From: Actinomycetota bacterium
GTDB lineage: Bacteria; Actinomycetota; Actinomycetes; Actinomycetales; Microbacteriaceae
Direction: 5' to 3'
DNA length: 44,639 bases
Assembly: GCA_009702455.1 (NCBI GenBank)
Contig: WLIA01000008.1
Location: 1-44,639 of the forward strand
Made by a program: the position numbers and the translations under genes. The notes below the pieces were generated by a model. It was not told where the DNA came from, made no database searches, and saw nothing but the letters and a program-made list of their open reading frames with translations. Shown here piece by piece: positions 2,431-4,754 of this stretch. How positions within the stretch are numbered: position 1 is the stretch's first letter; each line of letters opens with the position of its first letter.

Positions 2431-2862
2431 TTGTCAGAGATTGTCACTGTTTCAGGGCTCGTAGCCACCACCCCGCGTCACCTGGTAACCCAAGATGGTT
2501 TGCCAATCACATCTTTTCGCATGGCGGCTTCGCACCGCAGATTCGACCGCACCGCAAATAAGTGGGTCGACGGCGAAACCAACTGGTTCACGGTCACCGC
2601 ATTTCGCCAGCTAGCGATCAATTCGGCCGGCTCTATTTCAAAGGGCGAACGCGTCTTGGTTACAGGCAAGTTGAGAGTTCGCGACTGGGATAACGGCGAA
2701 CGTGCAGGCACATCGGTTGAAGTCGAAGCCGAAGCCCTCGGTCACGACCTCACCTGGGGCACGGCTATCTTCACCAGAACCGTCTTGGTGCGCGAGCCAG
2801 ACCCTGCCGACGATAGCGAGAGCGAAGACGAGAGCGAAGAAGAGCTCGTCGCAGCCAAGTAG
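2431..2862 (+). CDS. ssb: single-stranded DNA-binding protein (paralog lacking a DDIPF-type tip)
   Basis: OB-fold SSB sequence (GLVATTPRHLVTQDGLPITSFRMA...NWFTVTAFRQLA...); TTG start preceded by GAGAGAGG; acidic C-terminus ends EEELVAAK. Confidence 0.85.
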   Translation: MSEIVTVSGLVATTPRHLVTQDGLPITSFRMAASHRRFDRTANKWVDGETNWFTVTAFRQLAINSAGSISKGERVLVTGKLRVRDWDNGERAGTSVEVEAEALGHDLTWGTAIFTRTVLVREPDPADDSESEDESEEELVAAK

Positions 2863-2872
2863 CCCATAGACT

Positions 2873-2912
2873 GCTGGGCCGGCAGGCGACCCCCTCTGCC
2901 TGCCGGCTCAGC
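2873..2912 (+). terminator. strong 15-bp hairpin after ssb (no U-tract)
   Basis: GCTGGGCCGGCAGGC-GACCCCCTCT-GCCTGCCGGCTCAGC; one G.U pair. Confidence 0.5.
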
Positions 2913-2916
2913 GCCA

Positions 2917-3049
2917 AACCTCTGTTCGAGACTCGACTCGAAACAGGGGTTGGTGCTCTCTCGCAATGCATGCATTCTCAGTGCTCAAGATGCAGCCAAA
3001 ATTGGTCGGATAAACTCTTTCCGACAGCATGCGGCGCGAGAGAGCGCCA
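2917..3049 (+). ncRNA. candidate structured leader or small RNA upstream of ettA
   Basis: Second hairpin at 2917-2951 (14 bp, one bulge), then a 14-bp stem 2951-2964/3036-3049 enclosing GCATGC/GCATGC and GTCGGA/TCCGAC helices. Confidence 0.4.
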
Positions 3050-3071
3050 TCTATTGAAAGCGACAACTACT

Positions 3072-4754
3072 TTGGCTGAATTCATCTATCAGATGATCAA
3101 GGCGCGCAAAGCGCATGGCGACAAGGTCATTCTTGATGACGTAACTCTGGCATTTTTCCCCGGAGCCAAAATCGGCGTTGTCGGGCCAAATGGTGCGGGT
3201 AAGTCCACCGTGCTCAAGATCATGGCCGGAATCGACACGCCAAGCAACGGTGAAGCACGTCTCGCCACCGATGCCACCGTTGGAATCTTGCTGCAGGAGC
3301 CGCCGCTTGACGAGAGTCTTACTGTTCTCGGAAACGTCGAGCTCGCGGTTAAGGAAACCAAGGCCATGCTCAACCGATTCAACGAGATTTCTGCGCAGAT
3401 GGCCGAGCCCGATGCAGACTTCGACACCCTGCTGGCTGAGATGGGTGTCTTGCAAGAGCAGATCGATCACCTGGATGCTTGGGATCTCGACAGTCAACTC
3501 GAGCAAGCCATGGATGCGCTTCGCTGCCCACCGGGTGACACCCCGGTAACCCAACTCTCTGGTGGAGAGCGCAGAAGAGTTGCGCTCTGCAAGTTGCTTC
3601 TCGAGAAGCCAGACCTTCTTTTGCTCGACGAACCAACCAACCACCTAGACGCCGAGTCGGTTTTGTGGCTTGAGCAGCACCTGGCAAAGTATCCGGGTGC
3701 CGTGCTCGCCGTAACTCACGACCGTTACTTTCTCGACAATGTTGCCGAGTGGATTCTCGAACTCGACCGCGGTCGCGCTTACCCATACGAGGGCAACTAC
3801 TCGACCTACCTAGAAAAGAAACGCGAGCGACTAGAAGTAGCTGGCAAGAAAGACGCCAAGCTTGCTAAACGTCTTTCTGAAGAACTCGAGTGGGTGCGCT
3901 CAAATTCAAAGGCACGTCAGACTAAGTCGAAGGCACGTTTGGCCAAGTATGAAGAAATGGCAGCTGCTGCCGATCGCGATAGAAAACTCGATTTCGAAGA
4001 GATTCAGATTCCCGTTGGTCCGCGACTCGGAAACATCGTTCTCGAAGCCAAGAACATCAAAAAGGGTTTCGGCGATCGCGTTCTGGTCGACGGCCTGAGC
4101 TTCTCACTGCCAAGAAACGGAATCGTTGGAGTAATCGGGCCAAACGGTGTTGGAAAGTCAACTCTTTTCAAGAGCATCGTTGGCCTAGAGAAGCTCGACG
4201 GCGGTGAGTTGAAAATCGGTGAGACCGTAAAGATCTCATACGTCGACCAGTCACGTGCGGGCATAGACCCAAACAAGACCCTTTTCGAAGTAGTTTCTGA
4301 CGGGCTCGACTTCATGATGGTCGGCAACACAGAAATTCCCTCGCGCGCCTATGTTGCAGCCTTCGGGTTCAAGGGTGCAGATCAGCAAAAGCCTGCAGGC
4401 GTTCTTTCGGGTGGTGAGAGAAACCGACTAAACCTCGCACTCACCTTGAAGCAGGGTGGAAACCTACTGCTACTCGATGAGCCAACAAACGACCTCGATG
4501 TCGAAACCCTGTCTAGCCTCGAGAACGCTCTGCTGGAGTTTCCGGGTTGTGCGGTGGTCATCACTCACGATCGCTGGTTCCTCGACAGAGTTGCCACGCA
4601 CATCTTGGCTTACGAAGGCACCGACGACGACCCTGCCAACTGGTACTGGTTCGAAGGAAACTTCGACTCATACGAAGAGAACAAAATTGAACGTTTGGGC
4701 GCAGAAGCAGCAAAGCCGCATCGTTCGACCTACCGCCGCTTGACTCGCGACTAG
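3072..4754 (+). CDS. ettA: energy-dependent translational throttle protein EttA (ABC-F ATPase)
   Basis: Two ABC domains (GPNGAGKST, LSGGERRRVALCKLL; GPNGVGKST, LSGGERNRLNLALTL). Start taken as TTG (LAEFIYQMIKARKAHGDKVILDDVTL), matching the usual family N-terminus; the ORF track start is 2970. Confidence 0.9.
   Translation: MAEFIYQMIKARKAHGDKVILDDVTLAFFPGAKIGVVGPNGAGKSTVLKIMAGIDTPSNGEARLATDATVGILLQEPPLDESLTVLGNVELAVKETKAMLNRFNEISAQMAEPDADFDTLLAEMGVLQEQIDHLDAWDLDSQLEQAMDALRCPPGDTPVTQLSGGERRRVALCKLLLEKPDLLLLDEPTNHLDAESVLWLEQHLAKYPGAVLAVTHDRYFLDNVAEWILELDRGRAYPYEGNYSTYLEKKRERLEVAGKKDAKLAKRLSEELEWVRSNSKARQTKSKARLAKYEEMAAAADRDRKLDFEEIQIPVGPRLGNIVLEAKNIKKGFGDRVLVDGLSFSLPRNGIVGVIGPNGVGKSTLFKSIVGLEKLDGGELKIGETVKISYVDQSRAGIDPNKTLFEVVSDGLDFMMVGNTEIPSRAYVAAFGFKGADQQKPAGVLSGGERNRLNLALTLKQGGNLLLLDEPTNDLDVETLSSLENALLEFPGCAVVITHDRWFLDRVATHILAYEGTDDDPANWYWFEGNFDSYEENKIERLGAEAAKPHRSTYRRLTRD

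Follow-up and report, generated by a model that had tools for sequence, protein, structure and literature searches.

Attenuation is known to control ABC-F resistance genes, among them msrD and vmlR. 6C RNA consists of a pair of hairpins whose loops both hold about six consecutive C, and TAnnnT constitutes a known class of actinobacterial -10 promoter elements. In the window, i.e., the whole stretch of 44,639 nucleotides analyzed here, the initial annotation had drawn attention to three long helices between ssb and ettA and proposed a regulatory leader of ettA or, alternatively, a plain ssb terminator. We report that this region is best read as a terminator of ssb in whose loop the promoter of ettA is probably nested.

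The GTDB genus to which the window belongs includes Rhodoluna limnophila (Microbacteriaceae). The upstream gene (2431-2862, plus strand) is an ssb paralogue encoding an SSB-like protein of 143 amino acids, whose best match by hmmscan to the ssb families (PRK07772, E = 1.4e-29) remains below the curated cut-off. The downstream gene, ettA (3072-4754, plus strand), encodes an ABC-F translation factor recognized above cut-off by NCBIfam PRK11819/TIGR03719; it begins with TTG, and its start (TTG/ATG) agrees with that of relatives. Regions upstream of ettA were taken from 52 other members of the genus, among which the gene order ssb-ettA is kept. Their intergenic length ranges from 99 to 268 nt and, close relatives excepted, their sequence is strongly divergent. 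A literature search retrieved no Rhodoluna paper on promoters or terminators, and mycobacterial locus tags led to nothing on the ssb-ettA pair. Upstream of ssb, a hairpin in its 5' UTR (2386-2424) holds the ssb ribosome-binding site within its 3' arm and has a counterpart with different arms in most genus members (e.g., CTCGAAAC/GTTTCGAG and CTTTCTGAA/TTCAGAAAG), which suggests translational control of ssb. Further upstream, between msrA and ssb, lies a consensus DnaA box (TTATCCACA, 2338-2346), a word present in 20 copies in the complete genome G006, 16 of them in the ~5% of that genome outside our ad hoc gene calls.

The three helices are real and all their arms read as first described. H1 (2873-2887/2898-2912), located directly 3' of ssb, is a 15-bp stem with one G.U pair and a C-rich loop (GACCCCCTCT, 2888-2897). 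H2 (2917-2930/2937-2951) is a 14-bp hairpin with a bulged A and the loop ACTCGA. The long stem H3, also called P1, pairs 2951-2964 with 3036-3049 and shares T2951 with H2, as had already been noticed. It encloses inner helices, including P2, which joins GCATGC (2968-2973) to GCATGC (3027-3032), and P4 (GTCGGA 3005-3010/TCCGAC 3020-3025), a small hairpin found in most relatives. All are given on the plus strand. H1, H2, and H3 taken singly each outscore 200 of 200 mononucleotide shuffles, and for the whole 212-nt region, the folding energy is -105.8 kcal/mol, dinucleotide shuffles reaching -66.2 ± 4.5 (z -8.76, 0/200). The genus as a whole keeps H1 and H3, but H2 is specific to its lineage, the window carrying a 14-nt insertion compared to its nearest relatives (region 2931-2944).

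When each relative was folded separately with RNAfold, most shared the same plan, i.e., a hairpin directly after the ssb stop codon followed by a long stem closing a domain of 55-130 nt. In a structure-blind MAFFT alignment of 33 sequences (A2), P1 is paired in 92.9% of cells, and double changes affect 11 of its 12 pairs as well as four of the six pairs of P2. Over the whole structure, double-change cells number 101 vs 30 in shuffles, counts that are inflated by kinship among relatives and overstate events; the covariation score is 0.487, compared to 0.214 in shuffles and 0.09-0.14 in slid controls, which keep the relatedness yet stay low. RNAalifold recovers the same long stem unprompted. The initial annotation had made its proposal depend on compensatory change among relatives, and such change is abundant. 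On the basis of this comparison, P1 is a genuine RNA helix.

The mismatches found within the stems by a strand-neutral search further indicate on which molecule the structure acts. G.U exceeds A.C by 28:1 in H1 and by 19:7 in P1, which places the activity of the structure in plus-strand RNA, i.e., in ssb transcripts or read-through. This excess, together with arms that change sequence freely, unlike an operator, makes it very improbable that the inverted repeats are DNA-level operator or cruciform sites surrounding the ettA promoter, although the palindrome of P4 is centered near the -10 and its own strand bias is weak (9 G.U vs 5 A.C).

A covariance model of the long stem detected the locus in 39 of 67 genomes of the genus, one per genome, and always at the ssb-ettA junction wherever the position was compared; in one genome, the model matched the same place on both strands. 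A shorter class of the same arrangement (55-66 nt), mostly missed by the model, is seen in the folds. The sister genus g13 has one long-stem locus, also between ssb and ettA, and the other genomes drawn from the family gave no match under stricter filters, which weak homologues may escape. A mobile or repeated element was rejected, since the structure is single-copy in its own genome and occupies one locus per genome elsewhere. Within the window, RNA model R1 matches 2949-3060 with 78.7 bits, the window sequence being part of its training set. Rfam reports nothing in the window at gathering threshold and nothing at E ≤ 1 in 20 homologous loci. Sequence comparison thus provides good support for a structured RNA element that is missing from Rfam. 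The likeness to 6C RNA pointed out by the initial annotation does not amount to membership: only H1 has a C-rich loop, those of H2 and H3 being different, and 6C RNA (RF01066) matches neither the window, nor the 20 homologous loci at E ≤ 1, nor the window's own genome. Three further genomes of the genus have weak sub-threshold 6C-like matches, at other places. By analogy, a 6C-style working, in which the C-rich loop would pair with a G-rich RNA, is possible.

The most conserved sequence of the intergenic region is a hexamer enclosed by P4 (TAAACT, 3011-3016, plus strand), the very word that the initial annotation had given as an example of an ettA start that would speak against its leader. All 53 genus regions carry TA[AT]A[ACG]T at 33-115 nt upstream of the ettA start, in the form of TAAACT (41 regions), TATACT (8), TAAAAT (3), or TAAAGT (1), and the invariant positions T1, A2, A4, and T6 include those expected of an actinobacterial -10 of the TAnnnT type. 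In G006, whose gene calls are a simple longest-ORF set, adequate for enrichment and no annotation, upstream sequences of genes show their strongest enrichment for five hexamers, TAGACT, TAAACT, TAGGAT, TAGGCT, and TAGAAT. TAAACT is observed there 31 times vs 3.8 expected, with some copies 0-8 nt ahead of the start codon, as in leaderless genes. The hexamer, conserved here and of a class enriched upstream of genes, hence belongs with the TANNNT elements. Moreover, the register of P4 slides relative to the hexamer between clades, which indicates that a DNA word, rather than an RNA loop, is under selection. We infer that TAAACT is the -10 of ettA and that transcription would start near 3023. No convincing -35 element was seen, and a search for sigma-70-type sites found none.

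In 50 of the 53 regions, the hexamer is enclosed by a stem that outscores ten shuffles. The exceptions (L053, L056, and L065) form one clade that lost the long stem; their near-identical regions, ~100 nt in length, retain H1 and TAAACT. Across the first 800 kb of G006, no other gene has its TAAACT in a comparably perfect stem, and a promoter within a terminator as a general layout was rejected on this count. In the genus Agromyces (L118), a stem 3' of ssb (CCGCCCGAGCC/GGCTCGGGCGG) surrounds TAGAAT and possibly represents the same layout of a promoter within a terminator. Just after the ssb stop codon of the window, TAGACT (2867-2872), the hexamer with the strongest upstream enrichment in G006, could form an alternative -10; as a conserved promoter it was discarded, its first T missing in nearly all relatives inspected. 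AGAC precedes H1 in 16 of 46 relatives (2.6 expected) and in some loci of Demequina.

With a -10 located within the loop of H3, transcription of ettA would begin downstream of H1, H2, and the 5' half of H3, and most of the structure is probably not an ettA leader. What stands of the regulatory-leader reading is a conserved structured RNA; its assignment to ettA has become doubtful in view of the TAAACT conserved inside the loop. The same hexamer weighs against a regulated attenuator, in which ettA would be transcribed largely by read-through from ssb and the H3 terminator would be opened or closed by a ligand, a protein, or the state of the ribosome. Such a device would fit the strong covariation, the nearly constant span of P1 (~99 nt) with its three-way inner fold, the T-run that follows P1 in relatives, and the attenuation known from msrD and vmlR. 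However, EttA is no resistance ABC-F, the loop-side sequence of the long stem varies freely beyond the hexamer, no conserved alternative antiterminator pairing was seen, and no upstream or leader-peptide ORF is conserved in position or sequence among the 53 relatives. We thus regard an attenuator as unlikely.

As in an intrinsic terminator, stable GC-rich stems (H1 and P1) come right after ssb. The lack of a U-tract mentioned by the initial annotation is strictly correct for the window, where H3 is followed by the degenerate ATCTATT (3049-3055, plus strand), but relatives carry T-runs at this position: at least 5 T occur within the 8 nt after P1 in 28 of 45 relatives vs 11% of random control windows from the same regions. 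This tract is also degenerate in the clade L044-L049. The ssb mRNA would most likely end within the element.

According to the reading that we favor, a polymerase coming from ssb would transcribe H1 and then the entire long stem (P1 with the inner helices P2-P4). P1 and the U-rich stretch would act as an intrinsic terminator, and the ssb message would end near 3050-3056. The ettA promoter would lie within the terminator loop, and an RNA begun near 3023 would hold the 3' arm alone; lacking the 5' arm, it could not form P1 and would escape termination. The most likely role of the inner helices is to bring the two arms of this ~99-nt hairpin effectively closer together. Some observations count against this nested arrangement: the ~99-nt span and the three-way inner fold exceed the needs of a terminator, P1 is absent from three genomes, a convincing -35 is missing, and the window has a degenerate U-tract. 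In some compact relatives (L047, L050, L071, L078, and L085), GAGGG or GGAGG is found in the 3' arm, 7-9 nt before ATG, and read-through RNA would there also hide the ribosome site.

The plain ssb terminator put forward as an alternative by the initial annotation comes closer than the leader, yet conservation of the nesting, together with the C-loop hairpin, makes the element more than plain. Hairpin terminators are common, and in such small genomes (0.8-1.6 Mb), where intergenic bases are few, the nested promoter could be a by-product of genome compaction and the hairpins ordinary terminators of no further meaning. We hold this to be improbable, given that the nesting is kept in 50 of 53 genomes despite sequence turnover and that H1, with its CCCC(C)U loop, stands apart from the other G006 hairpins.

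Indeed, 38 of 53 genus members carry CCCC or CCCT in the loop of their best post-ssb hairpin, the stems of which are unrelated between clades, and the sister genus g13 also has an H1-type hairpin (loops CCCCCAAG and CCCCCCCAAG). Among the 181 post-stop hairpins of G006, a CCCC loop occurs in just 3, one of which is H1, and a general C-loop type of terminator in the genus was rejected on this count. Other Microbacteriaceae lack an H1-type C-loop hairpin, and most of them have ssb and ettA at least 500 nt apart. In Demequina, which belongs to another family, the first post-ssb hairpin has a CCCC(C)UC loop in 10 of 30 loci (GGGG in 1 of 30). That this loop recurs after ssb in two families argues strongly, at the sequence level, for its importance. 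H1 is a separate hairpin of the ssb 3' end, and its CCCC(C)U loop probably serves as the binding site of a protein or of a G-rich RNA. Near 472488-472525 of G006, another C-rich-loop hairpin (GTCCCCAACCAGCT[CTTCCCCCT]AGCTGGTTGGGGAC TTTT) is followed by TAAACT just ahead of a start codon.

Candidate partners of the loop were compared by eye. Pairing with the 3' arm of P1 as an antiterminator fits some clades (GAGGG arm), not those of the window and of L074, and pairing with the Shine-Dalgarno sequence of ssb or ettA is not kept across clades; both were abandoned. The same comparison bears on a small RNA derived from the ssb 3' UTR, i.e., H1 and H3 released from the mRNA and acting in trans, either with the CCCC(C)UC loop targeting G-rich sites or with the 5' arm of P1 targeting the ettA leader, to which it is complementary. 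The persistence of the loop while stems turn over completely, its rarity among other G006 hairpins, and its return after ssb in Demequina would suit such an RNA, as would the existence of C-rich-loop sRNAs (6C) in actinobacteria, a group without an Hfq homologue recognized by sequence (PMC6789036). As this element is not 6C by Rfam and the complementarity of its loop to the P1 3' arm or Shine-Dalgarno sequences is not kept, we consider a trans-acting RNA of this kind quite improbable. Fragments of the ssb 3' UTR would be perfectly complementary to the ettA leader. More speculatively, and with rather low confidence, H1 and the long stem may form a new riboregulator tying the expression of SSB to that of EttA, in which the CCCC(C)UC loop would be a protein or RNA receptor and the nested promoter and terminator would let ssb transcription or 3'-UTR fragments control ettA.

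If the ssb terminator does hold the ettA promoter, a promoter kept inside the terminator loop of the upstream gene through almost complete sequence turnover would represent a simple separation of neighboring transcripts, occurring in freshwater bacteria with very small genomes. Likewise, a CCCC(C)UC loop located 3' of ssb in two families offers a concrete lead on the recognition of C-rich loops in actinobacteria.

Compared to known systems, the element shares with 6C RNA (RF01066) a C-rich-loop hairpin in an actinobacterium, but it has one such loop, of 4-5 C, fixed at the 3' end of ssb. Similarly to the leaders of msrD and vmlR, it is a structured RNA located 5' of an ABC-F gene and includes a terminator-like stem, whereas the gene is here ettA, a -10-like hexamer lies in the terminator loop, and the region is devoid of a conserved upstream ORF. 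It resembles an intrinsic (Rho-independent) terminator in that a GC-rich stem comes after a stop codon and, in relatives, precedes T-rich DNA, and differs from it by a U-tract that is degenerate in the window and by a loop of 30-75 nt with covarying helices of its own and, as predicted, a promoter.
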